This document shows positions 38,174 to 64,000 of a stretch of 64,000 nt of DNA, one piece after another. The notes beneath the pieces were generated by a model. That model saw only the letters and a list, made by a program, of their open reading frames with translations. It was not told the DNA's origin and made no database searches. The stretch is from the NCBI RefSeq assembly GCF_005116675.2, contig NZ_CP050699.1:3619001-3683000 (forward strand). The letters run 5' to 3'. The first letter of the stretch is position 1, and each line of letters begins with the position of its first letter. Made by a program: the position numbers and the translations under genes. Source of the stretch: Desulfosediminicola ganghwensis. GTDB lineage: Bacteria; Desulfobacterota; Desulfobulbia; Desulfobulbales; Desulfocapsaceae.

Positions 38174-38189
38174 AGGTATGGAATTTGCT
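38174..38189 (+). promoter_or_regulatory. Candidate sigma-54 promoter of minor-pilin operon 1
   Basis: AGGTATGGAATTTGCT has the -24 GG and -12 GC elements exactly 10 bp apart and a full TTGCT at -12. Expected transcription start is near 38200, about 30 bp upstream of the ATG at 38230, which supports that start for the first pilin gene. The NtrC-family regulator encoded at 47489-48883 is the likely activator. Confidence 0.5.
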
Positions 38190-38229
38190 CATTAAGAATA
38201 AATTCCATTTCAACCCTAACAGTGATGCC

Positions 38230-38763: not shown

Positions 38764-38775
38764 TCAGCCGGTAAA

Positions 38776-39504: not shown

Positions 39505-39506
39505 CA

Positions 39507-39977: not shown

Positions 39978-39981
39978 TTCC

Positions 39982-40647
39982 ATGAAAATTTCTATCTATT
40001 CCAAACAACTTCTCAATCGTTCATCAGACGGCTACATCCTCATTGCAGCGCTCATGATCTTACTGGTGCTGACTCTCATCGGCATTGCCGGCAACCGCAA
40101 TACCACCACGGAATTGCAGGTAGCTGCCAATGATAAGGTCCATAGACAGACCTTTTATACCGCTGATGGCGGCACAGAATACGCCTCTGAACTTCTGGAA
40201 CAAAATATCGGTTGTATCGGTTTTACCAGCAATGGCACTTCAACCAATTGGCTCGATGATTCCAGTGGGCCTCTCGTCGTTGATAACTATATAGCTGTTG
40301 AAAACAGTTCGTTAAACTTCTGGCAAAACTCTATCGGCACCTGGTCTGACACGGGCTCTGATTACCCGAGTGATGACGACAGGGACCTCTTCTTCCCGCC
40401 TGACTACTCCGAAGGAGAGCCACACACAAATATCACCATAGAGGGTCGTTCTGATCTCACCGCCGGCAGCTCCATTATTATGGCGGCCGGCTATCTCGGT
40501 CTGGGCCGCAGCATGAGCTCAGGCGGGGTCACCCTCGAGTACGAAATCTACGCAAAACATATAGGCCAAAACAACAGTGAGAGCCTTATCCGGGTCGAGT
40601 GGCGGCATGTTGTTGGCCGTGAAGATCCATTCTGCACATATGATTGA
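39982..40647 (+). CDS. pilX: PilX-like minor pilin
   Basis: 221 aa from the ATG at 39982. The signal is PilX-like rather than classical: SSDGYILIAALMILLVLTLI, lacking the +5 Glu, which is usual for PilX. It is followed by NRNTTTELQVAANDKVHRQT and FYTADGGTEYASELL (the PilX A-G-E helix). A longer open frame starts at 39772 but overlaps pilV completely and has no RBS. PilX sits in the minor-pilin complex and contacts PilY1, encoded next after a 49 bp gap. Confidence 0.86.
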   Translation: MKISIYSKQLLNRSSDGYILIAALMILLVLTLIGIAGNRNTTTELQVAANDKVHRQTFYTADGGTEYASELLEQNIGCIGFTSNGTSTNWLDDSSGPLVVDNYIAVENSSLNFWQNSIGTWSDTGSDYPSDDDRDLFFPPDYSEGEPHTNITIEGRSDLTAGSSIIMAAGYLGLGRSMSSGGVTLEYEIYAKHIGQNNSESLIRVEWRHVVGREDPFCTYD

Positions 40648-40696
40648 TATTATTGCAAATTATTATATATAACGTTTTTATCTCGGAGGATTCAGT

Positions 40697-43600
40697 ATGA
40701 ATCACTTATTCAGGAGAAAAGCAGCAGCATGTCATCTTCTATTGCTTGCTTCTATCACCTTTACGCCTCTATCTCTGAACGCTTCGGTCTGTGGTGATGG
40801 TCTTGGAATGCCACCTTTTCTTTCTTCAGGAGCGAAGCCAAACCTGATGCTTGCCATTGACAACTCGGGAAGCATGCTGGATCTGGCCTATGTCAATAAC
40901 GTTGGTGAATGCTATGACAATGGTTTCGATGCAACACAGACCTACACCGGCCTTTATGAACCGAACACATGGTATGAATATGTACCAGGCCAGCCTCATT
41001 GGGTAAGTGGTACTTCATACACGGAAAACGACATTGTTTATTCTGACGGCGCGTTTTTTATTGCTAATTTAGTACATAAAGACCCAGATACCGGCCTACC
41101 ACTTCCCTCAACAGGCATTTCTATCAGTGAAGACGGTTCAGTGTACTGGCTGCCATTGCACTCAATAGCAGATTGGGAAAATGGCACATCATATGACAAT
41201 GGCAGCTTCGTTCGCTACGAGGATCAACTCTATTACACCACCAATGGTGGCACAGCCAACGGCACAACGATTGCTGACGATACTGGCGTAACCTGGGAAC
41301 CCAGAGATCACACCTGGTTGCCACAGACACCTTACCTGGCGAATGATATCGTTTCCTATAATGGCAAACTTTATCGCGCCACCAGTGGAGGAACTTCATC
41401 TGCTACTTCTCTCCATGACGACAGTGGCCTTACTTGGGACAGACTGAGCGAAGGACATTTTGAAGAGACAAATTTTGCCAGCATAAATGAGGCAACCACA
41501 CATTTCAGTACATCTGCCGGGAATGCCTACAGCAATGCCCATCTACTTGTTCATATTACTGAAGTGGAGGATACCGAAACATCCACATTACATCAATCAG
41601 GGGTCACCGCTTTTACTGCCACCGGTAATTTTCTCAATTGGGCATCTTCCTCTAAATTTGATATCCAGAAAAAAATTCTTACTGGCGGCAAGTTCGATCA
41701 AGATGAAGAGTTTCTTGTTAGTGAAGGCCGGGGCTGCTCCTCAAGAGGTTTTCTGAAAGAAATACCAGTGACCGGCCCGGCAGGTACCAACTCTGTCATT
41801 ACTTTTTCAATCTCTGGATTTAACGACGACAGCTGGATCGATACCACAGACGACACGACCAGAATTGCAATTCTGGGAATATCTGCAAAGGGGTTTATAG
41901 GTTCTGAACGGCAGCAGGCATGTAAGAACGCCGTGGATGAAATCAGTAAGGGAGCAGATGCCTCACAGGGCCAAACAAGTCAATATATTGACACATGTCT
42001 GGCTTATGATTCCCAAAACGGCATACTTGCTGCCTCAAATGCAGCATACAACCACTCGATCCACGCTTGCTGGTCCGCCGTAAAAAAAGGTTACACAGCT
42101 CCAAGTGACTTTGGCAACCTCAGCGAAATTTATAATGCCTGTGACGGCATTTATGCAAATGGTGTAACTCCACCAACAATCAGCCATTCAGACAGCGGCT
42201 ATATGTGCTACGGCGTTTATAACGAATCGACAATTGATACCGCACGCAAAGGGTACGTCGGCCGCTGCTATGAACCGGAAATTGGTGAGGGTTGTTCAAA
42301 AAAAGCATGCACCTCAAGCGATGACAACGTTGATGGCAATCCTGCTATAAAATGCTTTGAAAACGTACTCTATGAATGTACAGGCAACTACCAGGCGAAT
42401 AAAGACGCCTGCAACAAAGAATGGGCCGTCATCTGGGTCGACGATTCCGGGAATTCCTGTACACCAACCTCATCACAACCTGCTCAATGGACTGACGACT
42501 TTAACCCTAACTCTGCCGATGAGTGCGTTCAGGAAGCAATGTGGGATTACTGTCAATCCATTACTTTACCAGAGGTTATCGACCCGTCTGATGAAATATT
42601 CAACAGCGGAGAAACATGGGGATTACCTGGTTCACTGGTTGACTCTGGCGTTATAGCTATGTTCGGAACTGATAGCCCGCTCATCGTTATGAAGGGTTAT
42701 CTCAAGACGACAGAAAAGCCAGAAGGGCTTTTGCATGAGGTCGCTGGAGATCTGCGTCTTGGCGCTATGGCCTTTGCTGATAATGGTGCCTTAACTGAAT
42801 GTGAAATTGCCAATAATGCAATCTCCACAGACCCGAATAAACTCACCGACCCGATTATCAAATATTGTCCAGCGGAAAACAGAGACGGTGCAGAAATAAT
42901 TGCCCGGATAAGCGACGGGGACACCATATCCATCTCGACAGGCAACAAACACGTTGAGGATCTATCCACTGCCATTAACAATATCAAAGCTACTGCCTGG
43001 ACGCCATTGGCTGAAGGCATTTACAATGCTTTGGGATATTACGGTCAGAACGATTCCTTTCGCCTGGATGCCAGAGATTTTCTTCTTGAGACTGAAGATT
43101 CAGCCTGGGAAGATCCTGTGCAGTATTGGTGTCAGGAAAACTATGTCCTGTTTATAACCGAGGGCGCTTCAACAGCTGATATCCATAACGATGTTGCTGG
43201 CCTTGTAAATACAATGCCAGCAACCTTTGCCAATGCAGGTTACTCTGTAGCAAACGATGGCGAGTGCACAAGTGGGCAGCTCTATGGTTCGACCTATCTT
43301 GACGATGTCGTTTATTACGGCAAGAATGCGCCGGTCACCTCTCTCTACACCACCCCGGCCGAGAGCCCGGGGCAATTAGCCAGCGACGACGGCATACTGT
43401 ATGACAAGCGTAATGTTACCTCATACTTCGTTGTGGCCGGTGTACCTCGTGATGATGATTCGAAAAATGATTGTAATCCTGCAGTGCTTATGCAGAAAGC
43501 TGCCGATAATGCAGGTACGACCCTGTACACCGGGGAAGACCCTGGAATGCTTGAGTCGAACTTAAGGACAGCGCTATCAGACATTCTCTTCCGCGCCTCG

Positions 43601-46522
43601 GCAGGTTCTGCCGCATCGGTTATCTCCAGTTCCCGAAGTGGTGAAGGTGGCGTTTACCAGGCTATCTTCTGGCCGAAAATTGATCGTGGCATCGGTAAAG
43701 AACCTCTTGTCTGGGTTGGCGATGTGCACGCATTCTTTATCGATTCCAAAGGTAATCTCTGGGACGACTACAGTGGCAACTCCACGACACAGGGAGAGTT
43801 GTGGACTGAGGATACCAATGGTAACGGAAAAATCGACACCGGTGAGGACAGCAACAACAATGGTGTCCTCGATGGTGACAGAAGGGTTGTGACATATTTT
43901 GATGAGACATCACACTCGACTAAAATATGTTTTAACCGGGATGTTATAGACACAGGTGTCTGCAGTCAATCCGACTATTTTCAGACCAATGACACTTCCA
44001 TCGACCTCCGCGACTTTAAACATTATCTCTGGTCCGCCAAAGACCGCCTTGCCGCTATTCCAGACAGCAACATCCTCGAAAATCGTGAATTTCTGCCGGA
44101 TGGCACCTGGGACTTCACCGGTGGATACCCATACCGTTATGTCTTCACCTGGAACGATATCAACAATGATGGCATCGTCGACAATTATGAAGTCCTATCG
44201 TTTGACAGAGATACCATCAAAAGAGCAGAATCAGATTGGCTTGAATGGTATACAACACATAAAGGTCGCGGATCACTGCAAAGCGACTTCGGTGTAACTT
44301 CTGTTGAAGAATTGCAGGATGTTGTCGCCTGGGTTCGTGGCTATGACGAGTATGTCGAACTTGCCGATGGTACCTACGAGACAAAATATCGCTGCCGCCA
44401 ATATCCGGACTGTGATTACACCACGCTCAATCGCGAAACATGGCGTCTTGGTGATGTCATTCATTCAACCCCTACTCTGGTTGGAAGACCGTCGGAGGGA
44501 TACCACTACATCTACAATGATCCGGATTATGCCGACTTTTATAAGAAGTACAATAATCGTCGCCATATGATCTATTTCGGCGCCAATGATGGTATGCTCC
44601 ACGCGGTTAACGGCGGGTTCTACGATTCAGGTTTAAACAGGTTCCTGCCCTGTCGACCCGATAGCGATCAGCGAAATTCATCCGGAGAATGTATCGCCAC
44701 AACAGCATACGGCTCCAACTCTACCACTGCGTACCCTGAATTAGGCGATGAGATGTGGGCCTATGTGCCGTACAACCTGCAACCTCACCTGCAATGCCTG
44801 ACTTCTCCGGAATATGAACATAAGTATTACGTGGATGCGCCTCCAAGAATTTTCGATGTTCGCATATTCCCTGATGATGACATACATCCTAATGGCTGGG
44901 GTACCATTCTCGTTGGCCATATGCGTTTCGGGGGTGCACCTCAGATAGCTGATAACTCTACTGTCATCGATGAGAACCGTGAGTTCGTTTCTGCCTATTT
45001 TGTCCTGGATATCACAGACCCTGAACGTCAACCGACTCTTCTCGGTGAGATGACCATGACCACTGAAAAATTAGCAGATAGCACTGACAAATACGCGCAG
45101 TTAGGTTTTACAACCGCAATGCCCTCTATCGTGGTAATGCGTGACGACAGCGGCAATTCAGAGTGGTTCCTTGTTCTGGGTAATGGCCCGACAACAATCA
45201 AAGGGCAGAATGATCAGCAGGGTAAAATTGCCATCTATCCGCTCAACGCGCTCACAGGCGTTAACTGGAAGACAGGCAACGGCACTGTAGTCCCATCCAG
45301 CATAAAGCCTTTCAGGATTCCAAACGCTCTGCCCTCTTCTTCAGCCACTATTCCTTATGCCGGAAGATTTTTGATTGATGCAGACAGTAGCGGGGGGATC
45401 GAAAGTTTTGTAGGAGATATTGTCACAGTCGACTACGACCTGAGTTCGAACGGTTCTACCGGCAAAGGTATAGCCTACAAATCTGATGCGGCCTACTTCG
45501 GCACCACCGACGGATCTGACTTCACCGGTACCAAACCGACATGGAACGGCGGAGGCAGGCTCTTCAGGCTTGTTACCAAAAGCTTTGATACTGTAACTGG
45601 CAAACAGGCATACACCTACCCGGATCAGTGGGAAATTAAAAAACTTATAGATACTGAGGCTCCTATAACCGCTGCCCCAAATATCGGTTTTGACCCTGAA
45701 AACTTCTGGATCTACTTTGGTACCGGTCGGTTCTATTCCCCTGAAGACAAATCTGATGCGACGACCCAACGTTTTTTTGGCATACGGGAGCCAAGGGATC
45801 AAAACTGCGATATGACCTGGGGAGAGGTCAACTGGTTAAATAATGGCTCTGCGATTGCCCCTAATCCCGCCGCCATCCAGGGAGACCAGGGGCTTTACCG
45901 CTCTGACCTCATGAAAGTTCTCCTGAGTGGGACCGGAGGTTTTTATGGTAAGAGCAGCTTGATCTACTGTGAAAATGAAGACGGCACAACATGCATTCCG
46001 CCAGGGCTCAGCAAGACATACAGCCTTAACGGCAGTTCTAAAACATACTATTCCTATGGAGAAATGGAGCAATACATCAGAGGCGAGAGGTGTGGGGGCA
46101 CTAATAACGATTCGATCGGTATCGACGGTTGGTATCGCGAGTTGACAGAGCCACGCGAGCGTTCACTGGGTATGCCTACCCTTCTCGGTGGTCTTACTAC
46201 TTTTACAACCTATCAGCCCTTTGCAGATATTTGCCAGGCTGAAGGTGTAAGTTCCCTGTATGGTGTCTATTATCTCACCGGTACAGCATGGTATGAAAAT
46301 GTCTTTGGTACCGATAGCGATCAAGAGAGCAACGATGTCGTTCGCGATAAACTCGACCTCGGTCGTGGTCAGGCCATGACCCCCAGTTTGCATGTCGGCT
46401 CAGGTGGTGATGACGCCAACGCCTATATTCAGACCAGTACAGGTGAAATTATTCAGGTCGGACAACAGAACCTGCCATTGAATAATTTCAAGAGTGGCCG
46501 ATCAACATGGACTGACCAGTAA
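40697..46522 (+). CDS. pilY1: PilY1-type pilus tip adhesin with inserted carbohydrate-binding-like modules
   Basis: 1941 aa, secreted (signal peptide ~1-30). A von Willebrand-A-like domain starts at once, with the MIDAS motif AIDNSGSM (residues 54-60). Three consecutive ~48-residue modules follow at ~100-155, 158-203 and 205-250 (WVSGTSYTENDIVYSDGAFF; WENGTSYDNGSFVRYEDQLY; WLPQTPYLANDIVSYNGKLY). Their Trp, Gly-Tyr and Asp-x-Val-x-Tyr pattern resembles CBM5/12 chitin-binding repeats. The VWA continues later, with Cys-rich loops. Acidic calcium loops appear near 1040 (TNGNGKIDTGEDSNNNG) and 1154. The PilC beta-propeller occupies the C-terminal third (MIYFGANDGMLHAVNGG, ~1290). RBS CGGAGGATTC is strong. 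Closed by a terminator. Confidence 0.92.
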   Translation: MNHLFRRKAAACHLLLLASITFTPLSLNASVCGDGLGMPPFLSSGAKPNLMLAIDNSGSMLDLAYVNNVGECYDNGFDATQTYTGLYEPNTWYEYVPGQPHWVSGTSYTENDIVYSDGAFFIANLVHKDPDTGLPLPSTGISISEDGSVYWLPLHSIADWENGTSYDNGSFVRYEDQLYYTTNGGTANGTTIADDTGVTWEPRDHTWLPQTPYLANDIVSYNGKLYRATSGGTSSATSLHDDSGLTWDRLSEGHFEETNFASINEATTHFSTSAGNAYSNAHLLVHITEVEDTETSTLHQSGVTAFTATGNFLNWASSSKFDIQKKILTGGKFDQDEEFLVSEGRGCSSRGFLKEIPVTGPAGTNSVITFSISGFNDDSWIDTTDDTTRIAILGISAKGFIGSERQQACKNAVDEISKGADASQGQTSQYIDTCLAYDSQNGILAASNAAYNHSIHACWSAVKKGYTAPSDFGNLSEIYNACDGIYANGVTPPTISHSDSGYMCYGVYNESTIDTARKGYVGRCYEPEIGEGCSKKACTSSDDNVDGNPAIKCFENVLYECTGNYQANKDACNKEWAVIWVDDSGNSCTPTSSQPAQWTDDFNPNSADECVQEAMWDYCQSITLPEVIDPSDEIFNSGETWGLPGSLVDSGVIAMFGTDSPLIVMKGYLKTTEKPEGLLHEVAGDLRLGAMAFADNGALTECEIANNAISTDPNKLTDPIIKYCPAENRDGAEIIARISDGDTISISTGNKHVEDLSTAINNIKATAWTPLAEGIYNALGYYGQNDSFRLDARDFLLETEDSAWEDPVQYWCQENYVLFITEGASTADIHNDVAGLVNTMPATFANAGYSVANDGECTSGQLYGSTYLDDVVYYGKNAPVTSLYTTPAESPGQLASDDGILYDKRNVTSYFVVAGVPRDDDSKNDCNPAVLMQKAADNAGTTLYTGEDPGMLESNLRTALSDILFRASAGSAASVISSSRSGEGGVYQAIFWPKIDRGIGKEPLVWVGDVHAFFIDSKGNLWDDYSGNSTTQGELWTEDTNGNGKIDTGEDSNNNGVLDGDRRVVTYFDETSHSTKICFNRDVIDTGVCSQSDYFQTNDTSIDLRDFKHYLWSAKDRLAAIPDSNILENREFLPDGTWDFTGGYPYRYVFTWNDINNDGIVDNYEVLSFDRDTIKRAESDWLEWYTTHKGRGSLQSDFGVTSVEELQDVVAWVRGYDEYVELADGTYETKYRCRQYPDCDYTTLNRETWRLGDVIHSTPTLVGRPSEGYHYIYNDPDYADFYKKYNNRRHMIYFGANDGMLHAVNGGFYDSGLNRFLPCRPDSDQRNSSGECIATTAYGSNSTTAYPELGDEMWAYVPYNLQPHLQCLTSPEYEHKYYVDAPPRIFDVRIFPDDDIHPNGWGTILVGHMRFGGAPQIADNSTVIDENREFVSAYFVLDITDPERQPTLLGEMTMTTEKLADSTDKYAQLGFTTAMPSIVVMRDDSGNSEWFLVLGNGPTTIKGQNDQQGKIAIYPLNALTGVNWKTGNGTVVPSSIKPFRIPNALPSSSATIPYAGRFLIDADSSGGIESFVGDIVTVDYDLSSNGSTGKGIAYKSDAAYFGTTDGSDFTGTKPTWNGGGRLFRLVTKSFDTVTGKQAYTYPDQWEIKKLIDTEAPITAAPNIGFDPENFWIYFGTGRFYSPEDKSDATTQRFFGIREPRDQNCDMTWGEVNWLNNGSAIAPNPAAIQGDQGLYRSDLMKVLLSGTGGFYGKSSLIYCENEDGTTCIPPGLSKTYSLNGSSKTYYSYGEMEQYIRGERCGGTNNDSIGIDGWYRELTEPRERSLGMPTLLGGLTTFTTYQPFADICQAEGVSSLYGVYYLTGTAWYENVFGTDSDQESNDVVRDKLDLGRGQAMTPSLHVGSGGDDANAYIQTSTGEIIQVGQQNLPLNNFKSGRSTWTDQ

Positions 46523-47488: not shown

Positions 47489-48883
47489 CTAAAATCCATA
47501 CTCCTTGATCTTACTTAACAAAGAGGGGTAACTCATTTCCAGCAACTCTGCGGCCTTTCGCTTATTTCCTCCTGTTTTTTCGAGTACCCTTCGAATATAA
47601 ATCATTTCAACTTCCTTTTTGGCACTCTTTAGAGAAAAGCTCTCACCATGAGCTGTTGGCACTGGTACCTCCTGGTTTCCCGGCCGTAAAGCATCTGGCA
47701 ATTCCGCTTCAGTAATTGAATTCGTTTCTGCAAGTATTACGGCTCGCTCTATCACATTTTCCAGCTCCCTGACGTTGCCAGGCCAATCATGATGTAAGAG
47801 TAATGAGCCTGCTCCGGCAGACACTCCCTCTATTTCGCGACCGATATAATTACTCTTCTTGCGGATAAGATGGTCGCAGAGCTTATGAATATCGCCCTTC
47901 CTCTCCCGTAGTGGAGGAAGCTCCAGTCGTATAACATTCAGCCTATAGTAGAGATCTTCTCTAAACCTGTTATCAGCAATCTCCTTTTCAAGATTTCTGG
48001 AAGTTGCGGCGATGATTCGGACATCTACAGACAAGGGATGATTTGCCCCGATCGGTCTGATTTCACCTTCTTGCAAAACACGCAAAAGTTTCACCTGCAT
48101 TGCGTATGGGAGTTCTGCAATTTCATCAAGAAATAAAGAACTGCCGTCAGCTTCAAGAATGAGACCGTTCTTCTTGCTCTCTGCACCGGTAAAGGCACCT
48201 TTTTCATAACCGAACAACTCTGCCTCAAGAAGATTCTCAGGAATGCTTCCGCAGTTAATGGCAAAAAATTCATTACGGCTGCGATTTGAATACTTATGAA
48301 TCCCCCTGGCGAGCAATTCCTTACCTGTGCCTGATTCTCCCGTAATAAGAACGGTAGCATCATGCCCAGCAACTTTCTTTGCCAGATTGAATAGCTCTCG
48401 CATAACCTCTGAATCCCCAACCATACCGAAAAACCCATCCTCAGCCCTTATCGATGTCAACTCCTCCCGCAGTTGCAGATTTTCCCTTTTAAGCTGCTCC
48501 CGCTCTTCCGCTTTTTTGAGCGTTAGCAAAACTTCATCAACCTTGAAAGGCTTGGAGATGTAATCGTAGGCACCCTTTTTCATAGCTTCAAGAGCGAGTT
48601 CTACCGTACCGTAGGCCGACATCATGATCACGGTTGTGTCTTTCAGGAATTTGCGACCTTGCTGTAAAAATTCCATACCCGACAGCACCGGCATACGAAT
48701 ATCACAAAGGGCAAAGTCAAAATGCTCCTGCTGAACTTTTTCCAGTGCTTCTCGTCCATCCTGAGCCTGAAAGATCTGGTAGCCACTTCTCGAGAGCAGG
48801 GACTGCAGCATATGCCGCATGTTCTCTTCATCATCAATTATCAAAAGTTTATATCCCATGCCGCTCCCGTTCGTATTAGACAT
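47489..48883 (-). CDS. pilR: Sigma-54-dependent NtrC-family response regulator (PilR-like)
   Basis: 464 aa. The receiver domain (DDEENM, phospho-Asp in FALCDIRMPVLSG, Lys in ISKPFKVDEV) joins a AAA+ sigma-54 activator domain with Walker A ITGESGTGKELLARGIH, the sigma-54-contacting FGYEKGAFTGAE, Walker B GSSLFLDEIAEL, and the arginine finger region FREDLYYRLNV. The Fis-type HTH at the C-terminus reads GGNKRKAAELLEMSYPSLLS. It is coupled to the sensor kinase gene (8-bp overlap). Flanked by minor-pilin operons and with sigma-54 candidates before pilin genes, it is best read as PilR; the name is inferred from context since the family is large. Confidence 0.85.
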   Translation of the reverse strand: MSNTNGSGMGYKLLIIDDEENMRHMLQSLLSRSGYQIFQAQDGREALEKVQQEHFDFALCDIRMPVLSGMEFLQQGRKFLKDTTVIMMSAYGTVELALEAMKKGAYDYISKPFKVDEVLLTLKKAEEREQLKRENLQLREELTSIRAEDGFFGMVGDSEVMRELFNLAKKVAGHDATVLITGESGTGKELLARGIHKYSNRSRNEFFAINCGSIPENLLEAELFGYEKGAFTGAESKKNGLILEADGSSLFLDEIAELPYAMQVKLLRVLQEGEIRPIGANHPLSVDVRIIAATSRNLEKEIADNRFREDLYYRLNVIRLELPPLRERKGDIHKLCDHLIRKKSNYIGREIEGVSAGAGSLLLHHDWPGNVRELENVIERAVILAETNSITEAELPDALRPGNQEVPVPTAHGESFSLKSAKKEVEMIYIRRVLEKTGGNKRKAAELLEMSYPSLLSKIKEYGF

Positions 48884-50450
48884 CCCGTGTTACCATTGTA
48901 ATATCATCTTCAGGAACATATGCCGGCTCATATGCAGGAAAGGTTATCACAAATTCTGCACCAGCTCCTTTTTGACTGGCAACCCTTATAGTTCCGCCAA
49001 ATGAACGGATTATTCTGTTTGCAACCGCCATCCCCAGTCCGGTTCCCTGGCCAGGCTCTTTCGTGGTAAAGAACGGTTCGAATATTAGTTCAAGGTTTTC
49101 TTCATCGATACCGATGCCACTATCCCTGATGGTAAGAAGTATATCTTTCCGGGTATCTTTCTCCCTAAAAACCGGGTGAATTGTCACTTCAATTATTCTA
49201 TGCTCTTCATTTTTCTCCGCAATCGCATCAATACTGTTGAGGAGAAAGTTCAACAACAGCTGCTGGATTTTATCCCTGTCTGCCCATATGGTGCATTTTT
49301 CTCCTGGAAATTCTGTTTTTACTGAAATGCAGTTCCTGGTGATAGGAAGTTGGAGCAGATCTAGAGATTTCTTTATGGACTCAGCTAAATCGACAGGCTC
49401 CTGATTACTGGCACTACTACGTGCCATCTCCAGTAACTGCTTTAAAAGAGTATCAATGCGGAGCAGCTCATCAAGCCCTCTCTTTATGAATTGCCTTCTT
49501 TCACCATCGCTCACATCATCTCTTTCAATCAGTTCAAGATACCCCTGAACAATTGCCACGGGGTTGCCAATCTCGTGGGCGAGACCGGCAGACAGTCGCC
49601 CCAGTGAAGCAAGTTTTTCAGCATGAACAATTTCGTCCCGGGCGTCCCTGAGCCTGGCATTTGCTTCTTTGAGAGACCCAACTGACTCACGCAACTGATC
49701 ACGGTCTTTTTCGATTTTCCTCACCATATTCTGCATTGCTCTGGACAACTGACCAAACTCATTCGGAGAGTACTCCGAAAATAAACCAATCCCCTCCGAC
49801 AGGTGATAGTTGTCTGCCTGCAGCATGAGCTTATCCACGGGGTCGAGAAGTACCTTTCTCATGCGGAAAAACACCAAAGTCGCTAGAATTATCGCATTGA
49901 GCAATATGTAGACACAGATCATCGCCTGCTTTGATATCATGGCGTCTACTATCGACCTAGTACTGAGTAATATGCCGATACCCCCTTGTACTCTATCCTG
50001 GCTCTGAAATGGCACCGCTACAGCGATAAACATCGGCTGAATCACAAATACCGAACTCGTTTTCTCAATTCTTTCTACTACTGTTTTTTCATTCTTCACA
50101 GCCAACTGAACTGCTGACTGCAACGACTCATCGTACATAGTAGACTGTAAATTGCCCGTTTGTGACATTTCCTCCCTAAGCACCTCAACGACAATCTGCT
50201 TTACCGATACATCCAAAAAATTCCTAACTACTCTACTCAGCTTAATATCGTAATCGTTCGGCAGAACATTCCCGGCATGTACTTCGAGCCTAGATGCCTG
50301 TTCTAGAATTTTGACGGTTGTCTCTATTTTCTGCTGAACCTGACTTTTATACCACAATGCTGAGACAACGATATTTGTCAGGAGCATGGCAATCAGAAGC
50401 GCAGTGAAGACTGATACCGCAATATGGCTTTTAAGATTTCTGGGATACAT
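48876..50450 (-). CDS. Membrane sensor histidine kinase (PilS-like partner)
   Basis: 524 aa. Membrane segment ~12-34, an extracytoplasmic sensor of ~145 residues, second membrane segment ~180-200 (MICVYILLNAIILATLVFF), HAMP region, a coiled coil, HisKA with the phospho-His in GRLSAGLAHEIGNPVAIVQGY (near residue 290), and HATPase with LLLNFLLNSIDAIAE, RDSGIGIDEE and GQGTGLGMAVANRI. It has two membrane segments, unlike the six of Pseudomonas PilS, so the signal it senses differs. It overlaps the regulator gene by 8 bp. Confidence 0.87.
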   Translation of the reverse strand: MYPRNLKSHIAVSVFTALLIAMLLTNIVVSALWYKSQVQQKIETTVKILEQASRLEVHAGNVLPNDYDIKLSRVVRNFLDVSVKQIVVEVLREEMSQTGNLQSTMYDESLQSAVQLAVKNEKTVVERIEKTSSVFVIQPMFIAVAVPFQSQDRVQGGIGILLSTRSIVDAMISKQAMICVYILLNAIILATLVFFRMRKVLLDPVDKLMLQADNYHLSEGIGLFSEYSPNEFGQLSRAMQNMVRKIEKDRDQLRESVGSLKEANARLRDARDEIVHAEKLASLGRLSAGLAHEIGNPVAIVQGYLELIERDDVSDGERRQFIKRGLDELLRIDTLLKQLLEMARSSASNQEPVDLAESIKKSLDLLQLPITRNCISVKTEFPGEKCTIWADRDKIQQLLLNFLLNSIDAIAEKNEEHRIIEVTIHPVFREKDTRKDILLTIRDSGIGIDEENLELIFEPFFTTKEPGQGTGLGMAVANRIIRSFGGTIRVASQKGAGAEFVITFPAYEPAYVPEDDITMVTRDV

Positions 50451-51272: not shown

Positions 51273-54200
51273 ATGATCACTATTATCTCTACCCTGACAA
51301 TCACCAAAAAACTGCATAAATTCGTCCTGCTAACCCTGCTTCTCCCTGTCAATGTTTACGCTGCCCAATGCAGTGATTACTTCGCAATTCCTCCTTTTCT
51401 TATCTCTTCAGTCAAGCCCAATGTCGTATTCATGTTGGATAGTTCTGGCAGCATGAAAGAACCCCAATATCCTGGTGGCTATAGCAAAGACTGCACAGGC
51501 AATTGCATTGGCGACGACTTTGACCCTGCTAAAGAATACTTCGGCCTTTTCAGAAATGACCAAACTTACAGCTACGATTCAACAATACCCGTAGACACGA
51601 CTGAACTTACCGGGGCTACAGCCAACTACGATGTCATTGTCGATACCTCGAGCACAGGTGCCTTTTATCAAGAAAACTGCGCCATCACACAGGGTGTTGA
51701 ATGCTGGTCCGGCAACTTCCTAAACTGGTTGACCACAAGAAAAATTGACGTCGCACGTAAAGTCCTGACTGGTGGCAAAGTTGAAAACAGGGCAGGTTTT
51801 GATTATATGGGAACCATTCCCTCCTCGTTCGACAGTACCACCTTCAAAATCGTCGGACACAATGAACCGTCCGACCATAGTATTTTCAAATATTCAGCCA
51901 GCTCTGAGAATTACTCCCCTTACCCGAACTCCACCATTTTTCAAACCATGAGTCCGGCACATGCCGGTGAGCTGAAAGCAAGCTACGACCCCTATGCCAA
52001 ACTCGTTGCTGGCAGCAGGCTGATCCTCAACTCCGCCGGGGAGGTAATCGGTGAATATGGGCTCATCGAGGATCTCCATGACGTGCCTGTCACCGTCAAT
52101 TTCCAGACCAATTACCCAAGCCCGCCAGTCATTATAGCCAAAACCCCAAGCGACAACGGCAGCGATCCATCAATCGTGCAAGTTATCCTTAACAATCCCG
52201 CCCAGCCTGATTCCAGCGAGAACACCTCATCCTTTAAGATACGTATCCAGGAATGGGGGCAAGGGCAACATATCATCGGGGAGAAAGTAGCCTACCTTGC
52301 AATACGTAAGGGAACACATCTTCTGTTAGGAGACAATGGCCCCCTCCGACTCGTAGCCGGTTCTCAACAGATCAACCACATTGACAGCTGGCAGAAGATC
52401 GAGACAAGCGGCTTCACCAACCAACCTGTTGTGTTCACCTCCATAGTCACGGCAGAAACAAGCAATCCTGTTACCACACGGGTACAGAACGTTTTGCCCG
52501 AAGGATTCGAAACGCTCCTTCAAACCAATGCACTCAACCAGAAGCACAACCAGGCTGAGATTGTTCATTTTCTTGCTATTGAGGATGGCACCTTCCACGC
52601 AGGTGATTCCACATTCATGATCAGCTCTATTGGCAATATAAGTGGAACAAATCAAAATCTCTGGCTCGGCAGCCAGAGCCCGGAGCTGTTTATCGCGGAT
52701 ATGCAGACGTCCAACGACAACACCACCGCAAGCCTGCGCTATCAGCTAAATCCTGACGATTCAATCGATCTACACGTCGAGAATGCAGACGGCTCAATCA
52801 CTCATAGTTCTGAAACTTCAGGATTTATCGCAATCGATCAAGCACATCAGGAGTATAATATTGCAGTCATCGTTGACGAAGAGCCTCAGGGGGTAATCCA
52901 GAAACTCGCCGACAACAGTAGTGATGAAGCTAAAATCAGGGCAGGATTGAGCTTCTTTCGCTACCACAAAGACGAAAACATTTATGAAGGGGAATGGGCA
53001 CACGGCGGCACACTGAATCTGGCAATCCCTAAAAATCCTTTTGTTAAACACACCAATGACACGGGCGGTTTCAGATACATCAACACCCCTGTAACTGCAC
53101 CGGCTGAGGATCTTGTCGATGCCATCGAGCATTATCCGCTGGTATGGGGCACAACTCCTCTTGCAGAAAACCTCTTTTCCTTGGGGCAGTACTTTGCGCA
53201 AGAGCAGAGTCCCTACTACATTGATAAACCCGCCATTGCCAATGACATCATCTACGAGGCAATTGATAGTTGGGACCCATACGCCTATGAACAGGGTGAC
53301 GGTAGCTACAATATAGTCCGATGCGCAAAATCCTACGTAATAATACTCACCGACGGCCATCCCTCAAAAGATGACTATATCCCACCAATGTTCCTAGACT
53401 CTTTCGGCAATACTCAGCCCATAATAGACAGCGACGGGGACAATAACATTGGAGACGGCAGCGATGCAGCTGATGAATCCAACATTTACCAGGATAACCT
53501 TGACGATATCGCCTATTTTCTGCGCTGGGACGATTCCTCAGGCCAGAAGGAAAACCGCGACCTACGGTTTGATGCCGACCTTGATGGAGATCAGTATATC
53601 ACCACGTATTCTGTAACTTTCGGCAGCAACACGCCTCCCCAGATTCTGCAGGACGCTGCCGCTAACGGCGGCGGCCAGTCATACTCCGCAAGTAGCGGCG
53701 ATGAGCTCGCCAATGTTCTGACCAAAGCCGTCAGCGATATCCTGGCACGCACTTCAGCCGGTACCGCAGTCTCGGTGCTGAGCGAGCGTGCCGCATCCGG
53801 GGCTTTGATATCACAGGCGCTATTCTTTCCGGAAAAACAGTTTGCAGACAACTCCAGTCTGCACAATGTCCAATGGCTCAGTAATCTTAGCGGCTACTGG
53901 CATTACCGTTCTGATAGTGTTTCCAGCATACGTGAAAATACAACTGATACTATTCATCTCGACCCCATAACCAATGACACGTATTTCGCGCTGGATATCA
54001 TCGATGACATGGCAATCGAGTTCGTTCTTTCTAATGACGGAACACTTGTAATAGAGCGTTACAACCCAATTTCCACCATGGGCAACGACTATGGAGACAA
54101 AGACCCGAACTCAGCTCCCGGCAACACCCCGGGTCCATACGATGTGCTTACTGCGGTAGATCAGGTTCAACGCATTTTCGACACCGGTGAAATCCTCAGC

Positions 54201-56213
54201 CTTGAAACCATCGAACCTGACTTGAGCGATATTCTGGGTGGAGGACGACTGATATTCGGTGTTGACCGAAATGGTACACAGACCGAATTTCTTCAGAGCA
54301 ACAGAGCTGACTTTGCGGAAATGTTCAAACTCGGTACTGAAAGCACCCCGTCATGCCTTGGCGATCCGTTAGCACCTGAGACAGTTGACAACCTTATATC
54401 ATACATACGAGGTGCCAGTGACAATTTCACCGTAAATGGTGCTGCCACGCAATGCCGTTCCAGACGTTTTCGAGGTGACTCATCACTTACGGCAACCAGT
54501 GACGAAATATGGAAGCTCGGGGACATCATTAATTCCACTCCGAGAATCGTCGATTACCCGGATTACTCGGTGCTCTACACAGGTGCCAATGATGGCATGC
54601 TCCATGCCTTTAAAATTGGAAAACTGCGTAAAGATATGGTCCAGGCTAATCAGGCCATTGCCCTCTGTAATAACAACGATGATGGCTTCGGATGTCTGAA
54701 TGACGAAATTGGTGAAGAATTATGGAGCTTCATTCCCCAGAATGTCATGCCCTATCTTCAGTTTCTTGCAGATCCTGATTACGAACATATTTATACCGTT
54801 GATCAATCTCCATATGTGATCACCACTGCCGATAAGAAAATACTCATCGGCGGGATGCGATTCGGCGGTGCTGTCGGCTGCACTGATGGCACAGGCTGGT
54901 GCGGAGACACCACCGGTACCATAGGTAACGACAACGATAGTAATCCGTATCAGGCTATTCCGCCCGAAGCTACCATAATTGAAATGCAGGATCCTAATGG
55001 TCAGTTCATCACAGTTCCAGCTGGCGGGACAAATATCTATTCTCCTGCTTTACCTGGCAATCTTGGCCTTTCTTCATATTTCGCCATCGATATCACGGAT
55101 GCCAATGATCCGAAGTTCCTCTGGGAGTTCACAGACCCGAAACTTGGATACAGCTACTCAGGCCCAGCGTATATAAAAAGAGGTTCCAAACACTACGTAC
55201 TTTTTCTCTCCGGTCCCCTCAATTCCAATGGCCGCGCCACTGACGGTCAGGAACTTTCTGTTTTTATTCTTCAATTAAAAGATGACTTCAGCTTTGATCA
55301 ACTCCATACCATAACCGCTACGGATAACCCAAACTTTCAACACCTGAACAAAGCTTTCGGCGGACGCCTGTTCACTAACGGAGTGGATTATAACGGTGAC
55401 GACAATACCGACGCGGTCTTTTTCGGTGTAAACTGGATCACGTCCGGAGATTGGAAAGGAAACGTCTTCCTGGTCGCACCTGATGATGGCGACCCCTCCC
55501 AGTGGGATATCCAGCAGGTACTCAACCAGGCAATCGCCCCCATTACCGCCGCCATCGGCTACGGCTACTGTAACAAGAAAAACTATATATACTTCGGAAC
55601 CGGCCGCTGGTTCTACAGGGACGACATGGCTGGTGGTCAAAACGATACCAACAGCCTTCTGGGTGTACAGATCGACAACTGCCTGCAGGATTATATAGAC
55701 GGTGTCAATAATCCCAACTGCTCATTCAACAATTCACATAGCACCCAAAGCGGCTCAGATGTCTGCGGTGATAGACTCTCCGGTGCGCTGACCTGGAATT
55801 ACAATGAACTTGATACTGCAGATGGCATCTACAACAGGGAGCGTACCATTACCGACCCTACTATTATTGATGATTTCGTCATATTCACCACAATGAAACC
55901 CTACGCCAACTCCTGCTATTTCGGCGGTGTCACACGCCTTTATGGCTTCAACTGTGAAACGGGGCACGACATGTGGCACGATTGCACCTCCACACCAGTG
56001 AGCCCGCCAGCTGCATCAGCCCTGCTGCAGCCAAGTGGCGGCAACATTATAAATATTGAACTCACTGAAGAAAATTTCATCGATGGTGACGATGACCCGG
56101 ATACCCTCAAGGTTAGAACAGACACCCACGAAGGAACACCTCCGGAAGATGCTACCGAAACAAACAAGGATTCCGGGTATAAAGGAGAACTATTGCTATG
56201 GATAGAACGTTAA
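51273..56213 (+). CDS. pilY1: Second PilY1-type protein with lectin-like repeats
   Basis: 1646 aa, secreted (signal to ~30, ending VNVYA). MIDAS FMLDSSGSM at ~54-61. An insert of ~260 residues (~270-530) holds two to three repeats of a ~95-residue beta domain: NFQTNYPSPPVIIAKTP...IGEKVAYLAIRKG, GFTNQPVVFTSIV...QAEIVHFLAIEDG, and a weaker third. Their spacing resembles H-type lectin domains. The VWA resumes near 687 (YVIILTDGHPSKDDY). The propeller follows (VLYTGANDGMLHAFKIG near 1099; ILIGGMRFGGA), with a calcium-type loop (DYNGDDNTD). Only the MIDAS and PilC parts match the other PilY1; the inserts do not. It leads its operon, whereas the first PilY1 ends its own. The RBS is weak. Confidence 0.9.
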   Translation: MITIISTLTITKKLHKFVLLTLLLPVNVYAAQCSDYFAIPPFLISSVKPNVVFMLDSSGSMKEPQYPGGYSKDCTGNCIGDDFDPAKEYFGLFRNDQTYSYDSTIPVDTTELTGATANYDVIVDTSSTGAFYQENCAITQGVECWSGNFLNWLTTRKIDVARKVLTGGKVENRAGFDYMGTIPSSFDSTTFKIVGHNEPSDHSIFKYSASSENYSPYPNSTIFQTMSPAHAGELKASYDPYAKLVAGSRLILNSAGEVIGEYGLIEDLHDVPVTVNFQTNYPSPPVIIAKTPSDNGSDPSIVQVILNNPAQPDSSENTSSFKIRIQEWGQGQHIIGEKVAYLAIRKGTHLLLGDNGPLRLVAGSQQINHIDSWQKIETSGFTNQPVVFTSIVTAETSNPVTTRVQNVLPEGFETLLQTNALNQKHNQAEIVHFLAIEDGTFHAGDSTFMISSIGNISGTNQNLWLGSQSPELFIADMQTSNDNTTASLRYQLNPDDSIDLHVENADGSITHSSETSGFIAIDQAHQEYNIAVIVDEEPQGVIQKLADNSSDEAKIRAGLSFFRYHKDENIYEGEWAHGGTLNLAIPKNPFVKHTNDTGGFRYINTPVTAPAEDLVDAIEHYPLVWGTTPLAENLFSLGQYFAQEQSPYYIDKPAIANDIIYEAIDSWDPYAYEQGDGSYNIVRCAKSYVIILTDGHPSKDDYIPPMFLDSFGNTQPIIDSDGDNNIGDGSDAADESNIYQDNLDDIAYFLRWDDSSGQKENRDLRFDADLDGDQYITTYSVTFGSNTPPQILQDAAANGGGQSYSASSGDELANVLTKAVSDILARTSAGTAVSVLSERAASGALISQALFFPEKQFADNSSLHNVQWLSNLSGYWHYRSDSVSSIRENTTDTIHLDPITNDTYFALDIIDDMAIEFVLSNDGTLVIERYNPISTMGNDYGDKDPNSAPGNTPGPYDVLTAVDQVQRIFDTGEILSLETIEPDLSDILGGGRLIFGVDRNGTQTEFLQSNRADFAEMFKLGTESTPSCLGDPLAPETVDNLISYIRGASDNFTVNGAATQCRSRRFRGDSSLTATSDEIWKLGDIINSTPRIVDYPDYSVLYTGANDGMLHAFKIGKLRKDMVQANQAIALCNNNDDGFGCLNDEIGEELWSFIPQNVMPYLQFLADPDYEHIYTVDQSPYVITTADKKILIGGMRFGGAVGCTDGTGWCGDTTGTIGNDNDSNPYQAIPPEATIIEMQDPNGQFITVPAGGTNIYSPALPGNLGLSSYFAIDITDANDPKFLWEFTDPKLGYSYSGPAYIKRGSKHYVLFLSGPLNSNGRATDGQELSVFILQLKDDFSFDQLHTITATDNPNFQHLNKAFGGRLFTNGVDYNGDDNTDAVFFGVNWITSGDWKGNVFLVAPDDGDPSQWDIQQVLNQAIAPITAAIGYGYCNKKNYIYFGTGRWFYRDDMAGGQNDTNSLLGVQIDNCLQDYIDGVNNPNCSFNNSHSTQSGSDVCGDRLSGALTWNYNELDTADGIYNRERTITDPTIIDDFVIFTTMKPYANSCYFGGVTRLYGFNCETGHDMWHDCTSTPVSPPAASALLQPSGGNIINIELTEENFIDGDDDPDTLKVRTDTHEGTPPEDATETNKDSGYKGELLLWIER

Positions 56214-56707
56214 AAAAAAAGGTAGCGATACGTGGCAATAAGGGTTTCACCCTGATCGAATTACTGACCGTCATTGCTATGATCGGCATAATTGCCGCCA
56301 TCGCCATACACAAGTTCAACCGTATATCCGAAGCCGCCTCAATCTCTGAGGATATGCATAAAATCTCAGTCTATTTCAAGGAAAAACGGTTAAAAGCTTT
56401 TACCGAAAAGACTGAACTACAGATCAGTATCAACAGCGCCGGTGATGAACTGAAATCAGAGCTCATTGACTCAGCCGGAAATGTCACAGCCCTGGATGGA
56501 AAACTATTCCTCGGCAACCCGATCCGACCAGCCAACGAAGTGTACAAAATAAATACCAGAGGGCTGGTTTACGATGCCGAAAATATTTATCTCGCCACCA
56601 GCACCACAATCACTCTTGAAACATGTCTGGCCATAAACGATACCCGCATAGTTATCGGCAAGGCCGGAAAAGATGGAGGTGGAAATGATATCTGCAACCC
56701 GCTCTGA
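56198..56707 (+). CDS. FimT/GspH-type minor pilin (operon 2)
   Basis: 169 aa. Prepilin motif [20 protein letters not shown] (+5 Glu), followed by the GspH-like helix (ISEDMHKISVYFKEKRLKAF) and a beta domain (SELIDSAGNVTALDG). Conserved Cys pair near the end (LETCLAIND, DICNPL). Its start overlaps the end of pilY1-2 by 16 bp, so translation is coupled; AAAGGAG lies just upstream of the ATG. Confidence 0.87.
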   Translation: MDRTLKKKVAIRGNKGFTLIELLTVIAMIGIIAAIAIHKFNRISEAASISEDMHKISVYFKEKRLKAFTEKTELQISINSAGDELKSELIDSAGNVTALDGKLFLGNPIRPANEVYKINTRGLVYDAENIYLATSTTITLETCLAINDTRIVIGKAGKDGGGNDICNPL

Positions 56708-57077
56708 AAACGGCTTCACCTTACTTGAATCCGTAATAGCCTTATTTTTACTTACCATAATGATGCTCTGGACCATGCAATGCATGATCACCGCATATTC
56801 CGTTTCGAGCAGAAACCAACTGCGGGACGAAGCGGTTCGGATCGTCAACGAGCGATTGGCCGATGCCCGTAACATCCCATTCAGCAATACTGCGCTGCAG
56901 GAAACAGAAGTAACCGTCAACAGGCAAATACGTAACTACAGCCACGCCTACGCTGTGAAGGAAGTATACCAGACCATTGTCAATGGTACCGCAAGCTCCT
57001 TGACAGTAAAAGCCACCTGGACCCATAAAGGCACACAGTACAGTCATAGCGCAACTACCATTATAGGCGATATATGA
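56685..57077 (+). CDS. PilV-like minor pilin (operon 2)
   Basis: 130 aa from the ATG at 56685, which follows GGAGGTGG (an upstream ATG at 56673 lacks an RBS). Prepilin motif ENGFTLLESVIALFLLTIMM with +5 Glu, then a helix with RDEAVRIVNERLADARNIPF and a short beta domain. Overlaps its upstream neighbour by 23 bp and its downstream neighbour by 4 bp (ATGA). Confidence 0.83.
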   Translation: MISATRSENGFTLLESVIALFLLTIMMLWTMQCMITAYSVSSRNQLRDEAVRIVNERLADARNIPFSNTALQETEVTVNRQIRNYSHAYAVKEVYQTIVNGTASSLTVKATWTHKGTQYSHSATTIIGDI

Positions 57078-58018
57078 AAATCAACCACAGGGCTTTCACC
57101 ATTGTCGAGCTGCTCATTTCCATGCTGGTTATGAGCTTAGTGATGGCAATCACCTATCCACCCTTTATCAAACTGCTTACGTCAACGAAAGTCGAAGCTT
57201 CCACGGCCGAAAGCCATATGGACAAAATTACCTCGCTGGAGTTGATGCGACTCGACCTTGAACACGCCTTTTTCGGGATAGGCACAAATGAAACCAATAC
57301 TCCCCTTATCTGGGACAATACCAATAAAGTACTCACCATTCATTCAACCCTGAACAATTCAAACTCCGAGACTCTAGGCTGGCTTATTTTCGATTGCGAT
57401 GCAAACACGACTCAACTGAGCAGTGTGGTTGTCGAAGATCAGCGCTCAAGTTCCAACACCTGCATGATGATTCTTGACGATGAGAGAAAATATGAAAAAC
57501 TGACCCGGCTGTCAGCATCCTGTTCCGGAGCAGGTGATCCCGGATGTTGCCCGGGGAAGGGGATATACATGGGAATGCAGGTCAAAAACAGTACCGATTT
57601 AACATGCAGTTCTCTCAGGTCTACTGCTATCAGTTATAAAATGAGTACTTCTTCAACACCAGACTATTGCGCAAATCACACCAGCAGCATGCTTCGTGCA
57701 GTCAACAGCGGCAGCGGCGACCCGCTCTTAAACTGTGTGGCCGATTTCACTGTACGATTCGATCTGGATACTAACGGTAATGGCCAGATTGATCAGGCTT
57801 TCACGGATACTGCTCCGACCAGCACATCGGATATTCTCGATCGTGTGAAAAATATCCATGTATACATGCTGGCCCAGATCGGTAAAAAAGATAAAAACCT
57901 CCATTCCCAAAATGATTATTCCGACGGGCTGGTAACCCTTTCGGCCGGAAGCATTACAGATTACGAGCAGTATAGATGGAAGCTTATCCGTATCAGCGGC
58001 AAACCAATGAACTGGTAG
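57074..58018 (+). CDS. PilW-like minor pilin (operon 2)
   Basis: 314 aa. Prepilin-type start NHRAFTIVELLISMLVMSLV (Ala-Phe cleavage, +5 Glu), then a long beta-rich mature domain with several Cys (LIFDCDAN, LSASCSGAGDPGCCPGKG, LTCSSL, NCVADF). It includes an acidic loop DTNGNGQIDQAF that fits calcium binding. Longer than the PilW of operon 1 (242 aa) and not closely similar outside the helix. Start codon overlaps the upstream stop. Confidence 0.82.
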   Translation: MKINHRAFTIVELLISMLVMSLVMAITYPPFIKLLTSTKVEASTAESHMDKITSLELMRLDLEHAFFGIGTNETNTPLIWDNTNKVLTIHSTLNNSNSETLGWLIFDCDANTTQLSSVVVEDQRSSSNTCMMILDDERKYEKLTRLSASCSGAGDPGCCPGKGIYMGMQVKNSTDLTCSSLRSTAISYKMSTSSTPDYCANHTSSMLRAVNSGSGDPLLNCVADFTVRFDLDTNGNGQIDQAFTDTAPTSTSDILDRVKNIHVYMLAQIGKKDKNLHSQNDYSDGLVTLSAGSITDYEQYRWKLIRISGKPMNW

Positions 58019-58026
58019 GAGACACT

Positions 58027-58470
58027 ATGCATTGTATAAAAGATGATCGCGGATTTGCGCTGATCTCAATATTACTGATCGGATTTATCTCCATGGTGCT
58101 TATTTCAACACTGTTCTACACTTTAGTTGGTCATACTAAAATGTCCGGCAAAGACAAACGTTACCTGGCAGAGCTGGAGGTCGCAAAAGGCGCCAGTCAT
58201 TATATCATGGCCGAAATGAGAAACGATAACCTCACCTGCAACAACTCCGATTGCAGCTCTGGTAATAATCAAATCGATATCGATAATAACGTCTGTACTG
58301 CCTTGGCAAAGCAAAATTGTGACGGCATAACCGCTACCCTTCTCTCCCGCACTGAGTTCCGTGAAGACCCAAACGCGGATCTGGAATTTGTATATTCTGC
58401 AAGGGTTACCTCGACCTCAGCCCCCAACCCGGAAAAGGCGGAAGTGGAATTTATCTATCGTGTCTGGTAG
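58027..58470 (+). CDS. PilX-like minor pilin (operon 2)
   Basis: 148 aa from the ATG at 58027 (TAGGAGACACT upstream). The N-terminal helix DDRGFALISILLIGFISMVL lacks the +5 Glu, as in PilX and GspK. It continues TLVGHTKMSGKDKRYLAELE and VAKGASHYIMAEM. Cys cluster NLTCNNSDCSSG in the mature part. It ends the operon; no terminator was seen after it. Confidence 0.82.
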   Translation: MHCIKDDRGFALISILLIGFISMVLISTLFYTLVGHTKMSGKDKRYLAELEVAKGASHYIMAEMRNDNLTCNNSDCSSGNNQIDIDNNVCTALAKQNCDGITATLLSRTEFREDPNADLEFVYSARVTSTSAPNPEKAEVEFIYRVW

Positions 58471-61307: not shown

Positions 61308-61375
61308 GATGTATACCTCCTTGGTTATGGTGAGGCATACTGGAACATGAATTTATAGGACTGAAAAGATGGGGT

Positions 61376-62203: not shown

Positions 62204-62243
62204 TTTTTTGATACGACATCCTTCAGCATTCGATTGTCGAGCG

Positions 62244-62462: not shown

Positions 62463-62535
62463 CTGCTTCCTCCAGTTGATTTGATCGAAAGTCTAACATA
62501 TCAACTGGTACAAAAGCTAAGGGGCTGGCCAATAA

Positions 62536-63036
62536 CAATACCGCACCAACAGCATACACCTTCTTTGCGTCAGGCGCCAGCATGACTCTCTTAATGGAAC
62601 TTTCATAAAATGCACCTTCAATGCAAGTTTTATTGATGTTCAGCAAACTGAATATTTTAATAGCCTCCCGTCTATTTATAATAAATGCTAAGCTAAATTA
62701 CTTATAACTTCTGCATAGGAAGGCAGTCTAAAATAAGCGATTTTTTCACTACGTATACTAACAAATAAACCTAACACACTAACAACCCCCTCCTTGACAA
62801 TTTAAGGTATTTGGGCAAAATTTATGACATTTTTTGTCACTCCAATCCATTATTCTCACTTGAAATGCTTTTATTTATGAGGTAGATACACGATAAACAG
62901 GGTATTTATAGACATATTAAATATTTCTTACTTCACAGGCATACAACCTGCATTCATGTGAGAGTTAATTGAAGCGCGTTATATACGCAAACCCCAATCA
63001 CATAACAACCCCAAAACAAGGAGAGAGGTAAACGTT
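62536..63036. other. Leader and promoter region of the short pilin gene
   Basis: About 500 bp without a gene. It contains a TTGACA box at 62794-62799 (no good -10 at the right distance) and a well-formed sigma-54 candidate at 62937-62952. A minus-strand frame (62284-62646) crosses the IS3 boundary and is an artefact. Confidence 0.5.
62937..62952 (+). promoter_or_regulatory. Candidate sigma-54 promoter of the short pilin gene
   Basis: AGGCATACAACCTGCA: -24 GGCA and -12 TGCA with GG and GC exactly 10 bp apart. Expected start near 62963, giving a ~74-nt leader. This matches the known sigma-54/PilR control of pilA in Geobacter and Pseudomonas. Confidence 0.55.
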
Positions 63037-63267
63037 ATGATGAGACTTATCGGAAAACAGCTCAAGAGAGCAAAAGGCGAGAAAGGTTTTACCCTTATCG
63101 AGCTCATGATCGTTGTTGCTATTATTGGTATCCTTGCAGCAATTGCTATTCCTCAGTTCACCAAATATCGCGTTAGAGCAATGAATAAAGCCGCACTCGC
63201 TGATACTCGTAACCTCGCTACCGAGTTACATGCTTATGCAGCCGATACTCAGCAATTTCCAAACTAA
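63037..63267 (+). CDS. pilA: Short type IV pilin (PilA-N type)
   Basis: 76 aa preprotein. After a 17-residue leader ending in Gly, PilD cleavage before Phe gives a 59-residue mature pilin: [20 protein letters not shown], then [20 protein letters not shown] and [19 protein letters not shown]. It lacks the usual C-terminal globular beta domain and closely follows Geobacter sulfurreducens PilA-N in length and sequence. Aromatics are at positions 1, 24, 27, 50 and 57, with Met at 32. The major pilus subunit, in the inner membrane before assembly. Very strong RBS (AAGGAGAGAGGT). Followed after 42 bp by a secreted companion gene. Confidence 0.92.
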
Positions 63268-63309
63268 TTAATTTTCTACCAACTTTTAAACATTATTTAG
63301 GACTATATC

Positions 63310-63732
63310 ATGAAAAGACAATTAGTAGCTTTAGCTGGTGCAATATTACTGGTTTCGGTTCCTGTTCTCGCTTCCGCCGGTGTATATGATAATGGTACAG
63401 CAGGTACAGCTATTTCTTTTACACCTACAACACTCACCACTAATCCTTTTACTTTCCAGCCATCACCTAACGTCCTTACTTTAGGAGATTCTGATGCAGC
63501 AAACTTTGTTATCGCCGCTTACAATGCCAGTACACTCAAGGCTGATGGTGGTGAAGCATACGGGATGGCTTCTGACGTGTCTGGGACTTATACCCAGGAC
63601 ATCTCCGCTTCTACCGCAACTGCGCCAAGCTTAGGTACTGGAACAGATTCCGCAGCTTTTGGAACAGGTTGGGTTACACCTACCGGCAGCGATGTAGCGG
63701 GTGATACTTCCACCCCCAGTGCCACAAACTGA
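63310..63732 (+). CDS. Secreted companion of the short pilin (PilA-C-like)
   Basis: 140 aa. Signal peptide (LVALAGAILLVSVPVLASA) then a Thr/Ser/Gly/Ala-rich, Cys-free mature domain of ~117 residues (TAISFTPTTLTTNPFTFQPS, NFVIAAYNASTLKADGGEAY, STATAPSLGTGTDSAAFGTG). In Geobacter a gene in this position (PilA-C, also called Spc) encodes a protein that stabilises or co-assembles with PilA-N. Equivalence here is inferred from position, size and signal peptide, with no claim of close sequence identity. A hairpin terminator follows. Confidence 0.78.
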   Translation: MKRQLVALAGAILLVSVPVLASAGVYDNGTAGTAISFTPTTLTTNPFTFQPSPNVLTLGDSDAANFVIAAYNASTLKADGGEAYGMASDVSGTYTQDISASTATAPSLGTGTDSAAFGTGWVTPTGSDVAGDTSTPSATN

Positions 63733-63787
63733 TCATTAAGCCACATCACGCCAATTGCATTTAAGCAGTTTTTCCATTTGACGTTAT

Positions 63788-63820
63788 CAAAACCCCTCTA
63801 TATTTTCTGGAGGGGTTTTG
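63788..63820 (+). terminator. Terminator after the pilin pair
   Basis: CAAAACCCCTC (63788-63798) pairs with GAGGGGTTTTG (63810-63820), 11 bp with an 11-nt loop, followed by an AT-rich run. Confidence 0.8.
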
Positions 63821-63833
63821 AATATTTATTTAT

Positions 63834-64000
63834 ATGAAAATACTTACCTGCTCATCGCTATACAAAACGTATCGGAAAAAACTGTTTTCTAAAGCATCTC
63901 CTCCAGCTCTTCATGGGCTTGACCTTTCTATAGATTCTGGCGAGACAGTCGGTATCATAGGTCCTAATGGTGCTGGAAAATCGACACTCATTAAATCGAT
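63834..64000 (+). CDS. ABC transporter ATP-binding protein, 5' part only
   Basis: The first 55 complete codons before the window edge: [20 protein letters not shown], a loop, [17 protein letters not shown], and the Walker A motif [13 protein letters not shown]. The YKTY-R-K-F and HGLDLSID pattern fits ABC-2/NatA-type exporters. Its position directly after the pilin pair recalls, from memory, an ABC transporter cluster after pilA in Geobacter. Confidence 0.88.

Follow-up and report, generated by a model that had tools for sequence, protein, structure and literature searches.

Near one end of a 64,000-nucleotide stretch of the Desulfosediminicola ganghwensis genome (hereafter the window; bases 3619001-3683000 of a single 5.65 Mb contig), a gene for a short prepilin is followed directly by a gene for a secreted protein. 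This raises the question of what a pilin in two parts does in a sulfate reducer. The function of the corresponding Geobacter pair, PilA-N/PilA-C, is disputed: in an organism rich in cytochrome filaments, the pair could be a wire, a secretion piston or a plain pilus. Here, a sulfate reducer has a pilin of this same build, apparently its only type IVa major pilin, and in close relatives the pilin at this locus is fused. With this natural comparison of split and fused forms, the reason why pilins split, and any tie of splitting to electrons, become testable.

A short prepilin and its secreted companion

The first gene, pilA-N (63037..63267, + strand), encodes a short type IVa prepilin of 76 amino acids, comprising a 17-residue leader and a 59-residue, helix-only mature chain. 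A class III signal (GF/TLIE) and an N-terminal methylation motif are present, with TIGR02532 scoring above its cut-off. Both the reading of the open reading frame and a match to PF07963 (E=5.4e-10) bear out the preliminary description of a 59-residue mature pilin without a globular domain, and the aromatic residues at positions 1, 24, 27, 50 and 57, together with Met32 and Tyr50, were correctly given there. When pilA-N was searched against solved chains, the best matches were all to geopilin domain 1 (7tgg_A, 1.6e-21; 9egp_A, 2.6e-20; 2m7g_A, 1.2e-18), with other pilins trailing widely at 2e-10 or worse.

The companion gene, which is PilA-C-like (63310..63732, + strand), begins after a gap of 42 bp and lies in the same reading frame. 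Its 140-residue product consists of a Sec-type signal peptide (MKRQLVALAGAILLVSVPVLASA/G), which can be read directly from the sequence, and a beta-rich domain of 117 residues, whose homologue in full-length pilins is the C-terminal domain. This mature part contains 22 Thr, 17 Ala, 14 Gly and 13 Ser residues; the secreted, Thr/Gly-rich companion proposed previously is thus confirmed and is better termed Thr/Ala/Gly-rich.

AlphaFold was supplied with an in-frame read-through of both genes in which stops were read as Gln, using split rows only and then with fused rows. The resulting pTM was 0.45 for the former and 0.66 for the latter. The companion was predicted to form four antiparallel strands (residues 129-171 of the read-through model) with a pLDDT of approximately 90, and the signal peptide was modelled as a helix continuing that of the pilin. 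Foldseek searches with both read-through models returned no significant match.

A sigma-54 (-24/-12) promoter-like box, AGGCAT-N5-CTGCA, is located 84 bp before the pilA-N start codon (62937..62952, + strand) and agrees with the consensus at 8 of 11 positions (shuffle p=0.02). Better-matching boxes occur 54-57 bp upstream of the pilin in three close relatives (G002, G003 and G036), and such boxes also precede several fused homologues. On the 3' side of the companion, an intrinsic terminator-like hairpin with a 14-pair stem and a T-rich tail (63787..63821, + strand) closes the two-gene unit; approximately one such site is expected by chance, and its placement fits. Beyond it begins a PilH-like ABC transporter ATPase gene (63834..64000, + strand), which is truncated at the window end. 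In the genome, genes for an ABC-2 permease, a PilG-like protein and a Wzy_C/O-antigen-ligase-like protein come next. In relatives, where enough sequence could be read, split and fused pilins alike have the ATPase, permease and PilG-like genes behind them.

Further pilus genes lie upstream. A PilY1/PilC-like tip protein and four minor pilin-like proteins are encoded at 51273..58470 (+ strand), and a sigma-54 response regulator and sensor kinase occupy a PilR/PilS-like position at 47489..50450 (- strand). A second minor-pilin set (GspH/FimT, PilW and PilX) with PilY1 is found at 38185..46522 (+ strand). For what seems to be just one major pilin, the genome has two sets of PilY1 and minor pilins within the window and a further minor-pilin set elsewhere (L133:5909-8300). 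A CBM5/12 chitin-binding-type module is present in the first of the window's PilY1 proteins. IS66-type and IS3-type elements occupy positions 58975-62500, between the PilY1/minor-pilin genes and pilA-N; in G003, which belongs to the same genus, the pilin is immediately preceded by PilY1.

Homology of the companion to fused pilins of relatives

Searched alone, the companion had no match in PDB, Pfam or NCBIfam, and a tblastn search of it against plasmids was likewise without a match. A profile built from nine Desulfobacterota companions, signal peptide included, placed geopilin domain 2 at ranks 1, 2 and 4 among solved chains (8e-4, 0.022 and 0.11). With a mature-only profile of 18 companions of the window type, solved PilA-C scored 0.025 and was outranked by unrelated AhpC chains (0.013). 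By these scores the direct sequence link between the companion and solved PilA-C is weak and rests on intermediates.

The indirect links are firm. A profile of Geobacteraceae-side companions matched solved PilA-C at 3.2e-10 and 1.2e-8, and in hhalign comparisons the mature-only window-type companions aligned with the Geobacteraceae companions at E=1.3e-6. Aligned with the C-terminal domains of full-length pilins, they gave E=2e-5; in neither comparison did any of 100 column shuffles score as high. Repetition with 18 members yielded E=3.1e-6 against the Geobacteraceae companions and 0.0017 against the fused C-terminal domains, the latter with an HHalign probability of only 15%. The C-terminal profile of the fused pilins in turn matched solved PilA-C at 2.4e-4. 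Apparent internal stops in the companion of G003 were dismissed, as the alignment extends beyond the natural stop.

In many relatives this position, ahead of the same ABC ATPase, is taken by a single pilin of 200-240 amino acids, and where the pilin is full length the separate companion gene is absent. A close pilin match was found in 60 of the 258 genomes of the host's order, and reading of the loci confirmed a split pair, of either a window-like or a Geobacter-like lineage, in at least 28 of the 258. Among 24 further loci of the order with close pilin matches, 22 carry a secreted companion immediately downstream.

Could the companion nevertheless be an unrelated secreted protein that follows the pilin gene by chance? 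The weak direct similarity to solved PilA-C would fit such a coincidence, as would the missing Pfam and NCBIfam matches. Yet neither the recurrent adjacency, nor the shuffle-controlled profile homology to Geobacter companions and pilin C-terminal domains, nor the absence of the companion where the pilin is full length would then be expected, and we regard this explanation as scarcely credible. The adjacency is thus not a matter of chance. Given the homology of the companion both to Geobacter companions and to the C-terminal domains of the full-length pilins found at this locus, the pair therefore appears to be a split major pilin, a divided form of a pilin kept whole in relatives, and not two unrelated genes.

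Pairs were also recovered from Desulfobacula, Geobacteraceae, Mariprofundus, Brachymonas and one Nitrospinota genome. In Mariprofundus and Brachymonas (L048, L055), the pilins have 52-54 residues and occur with a secreted companion and the permease/PilG/ABC genes; in the tree of the ABC ATPase these loci make up a third branch. One genome of the survey (G242) carries both window-like and Geobacter-like split pairs (L154, L166). Short pilins with no adjacent companion were seen in two Geobacteraceae bins (L050, L054) and in one of the two copies in G193 (L161); an apparent short form in G090 was discarded because it lies at a contig end.

A tree of the ABC ATPase from 43 loci requires 3 changes of the split state compared with 13.2 when shuffled, and its starred branches force at least two changes. 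A single clade for all split loci is neither demonstrated nor rejected (AU p=0.085). Our tentative proposal, which we hold at somewhat short of even confidence, is that type IVa pilins of the split kind fall into at least two separate lineages, spread over sulfate reducers and other bacteria, and that they serve ordinary retractable pili. Either repeated fission or a single ancient fission with later re-fusion would have produced them. If so, the split architecture would not be an adaptation to extracellular electron transfer. Since the design recurs in at least 28 of the 258 sampled relatives, the two-part pilin is no peculiarity of Geobacter, and its presence alone does not point to electrical wires.

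Pilus machinery and the question of export

The genome encodes PilB (775.7 bits against a cut-off of 675.65), two PilT-family ATPases and PilM, these last also above curated cut-offs, together with three secretins. Separate from the pilin pair are a type II secretion locus, which looks complete and encodes a GspG-like protein of its own, and a Tad-like locus. The genome has 14 N_methyl loci. Because the 13 other than pilA-N all lie in the type II secretion cluster or in minor-pilin sets, the split pair is the sole candidate, and we infer that no other type IVa major pilin in the genome is plausible. Taken together with PilB, PilM and the two PilT proteins, this makes an ordinary pilus role the better reading when set against export. 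We consider it likely that the pair constitutes one type IVa major pilin in two chains, from which an ordinary retractable type IVa pilus is built, serving chiefly in attachment, movement over surfaces and biofilm formation.

Under this model, the pair would be expressed from the sigma-54 promoter, and PilA-N would supply the N-terminal helix, lying in the inner membrane and forming the core of the filament. The companion would be exported by Sec and, following removal of its signal peptide, dock on that half of the PilA-N helix which is exposed in the periplasm, thereby completing the globular head that in relatives belongs to one and the same polypeptide. PilB and PilM-Q would assemble this putative heterodimer into a type IVa pilus, retractable by virtue of the two PilT proteins, with PilY1 and minor pilins at its tip.

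The preliminary description had taken the pair, together with a c3 cytochrome and cytochrome maturation genes, as a pointer to extracellular electron or protein export. These genes (c3, and ResB/CcsA; 13716-16543) do exist, but they lie approximately 47 kb upstream, outside the pilus locus, and are ordinary for a sulfate reducer. The proposed link to electron export through the c3 cytochrome was rejected on grounds of distance and the lack of any connection to the locus. Nor does the pilin itself favour electron export: aromatics make up 8.5% of pilA-N, the lowest value among 36 split pilins, and the aromatic at position 32, present in all 16 sampled Geobacter-like split pilins, is missing (Met32) here and in most window-like ones. 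On these two counts, conduction by pilA-N is unsupported.

A separate locus (L196:6533-9440; genome approximately 2.887-2.890 Mb) encodes a decahaem DmsE/MtrA-family cytochrome with 10 CXXCH motifs, scoring above the TIGR03508 cut-off, and directly after it an MtrB/PioB-type porin. The two are candidates for a conduit that carries electrons across the outer membrane of a sulfate reducer. Through such an MtrA/MtrB-type conduit the organism could export electrons, with nothing linking the conduit to the pilin.

Short, aromatic-bearing pilins are the hallmark of the electrically conductive pilus (e-pilus) in the Geobacter literature, and by that measure the short pilin alone might form such a filament with the companion as an assembly helper. 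It retains F1, F24, Y27 and F57, and its longest aromatic-free gap is 22 residues. The absent aromatic at position 32 and the low aromatic density both count against this possibility, and the homology of the companion to a pilin head argues for a structural subunit rather than a helper; sequence, moreover, cannot predict conductivity. We therefore judge an e-pilus to be very unlikely. A somewhat less improbable alternative, though still an unlikely one, is that the pair forms a pseudopilus, periplasmic or short, by which cytochromes or other proteins are pushed from the cell. Such a role has been proposed for G. sulfurreducens PilA-N/PilA-C (Gu et al. 2021, as cited in PMC10597711 and PMC11046646), and multihaem proteins are encoded in the genome, among them the decahaem cytochrome with its porin. 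However, no cargo is linked to the locus, secretion has its own complete-looking type II locus and GspG-like protein, and pilA-N is not a type II secretion major pseudopilin according to the GspG model (TIGR01710; 49.1 against a cut-off of 88.85 bits). The two PilT proteins, like the several tip sets of PilY1 and minor pilins, point to a dynamic pilus on the cell surface, and the Geobacter role is itself contested, PMC9207759 disputing Gu et al. 2021. Thus, the ordinary retractable type IVa pilus remains our preferred reading.

Comparison with known systems

Truncated pilins are already known from Desulfobacterales: Shu et al. 2016 (PMC5174107) described them in Desulfobacula toluolica and Desulfobacter postgatei and proposed gene fission, with companions analysed in Geobacter. 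A Desulfobacula pair was recovered here (L052), in keeping with the short pilins reported there outside Geobacter. New in the present work are the companions, the orthology of the locus and the two lineages across the order.

The closest known counterpart is G. sulfurreducens PilA-N/PilA-C (GSU1496/GSU1497; PDB 6vk9 and 7tgg, and also 9egp), in which a short helix-only pilin is likewise followed by a Sec-secreted companion homologous to a pilin head. This PilA-N/PilA-C architecture, claimed in the preliminary description, finds support in sequence, synteny and distribution. As in Geobacteraceae pairs, ABC transporter (PilH/PilI-like) and PilG-like genes adjoin, although their order here is ATPase-permease-PilG compared with permease-PilG-ATPase at two Geobacteraceae loci (L088, L071). 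The D. ganghwensis pair also differs from that of Geobacter in its pattern of Met32 and Tyr50 and in a companion that is only remotely similar, and its ABC ATPase falls on another supported branch than the Geobacter-side ATPase. The full-length type IVa major pilins of the order (approximately 180-225 mature residues), as well as Myxococcus PilA, possess a homologous N-terminal helix and C-terminal domain, and those of the order share the locus and the downstream ABC ATPase with the split pair. They differ from it in being one polypeptide with no signal peptide before the head domain, and in a lower aromatic percentage (median 6.8%, 15 pilins).
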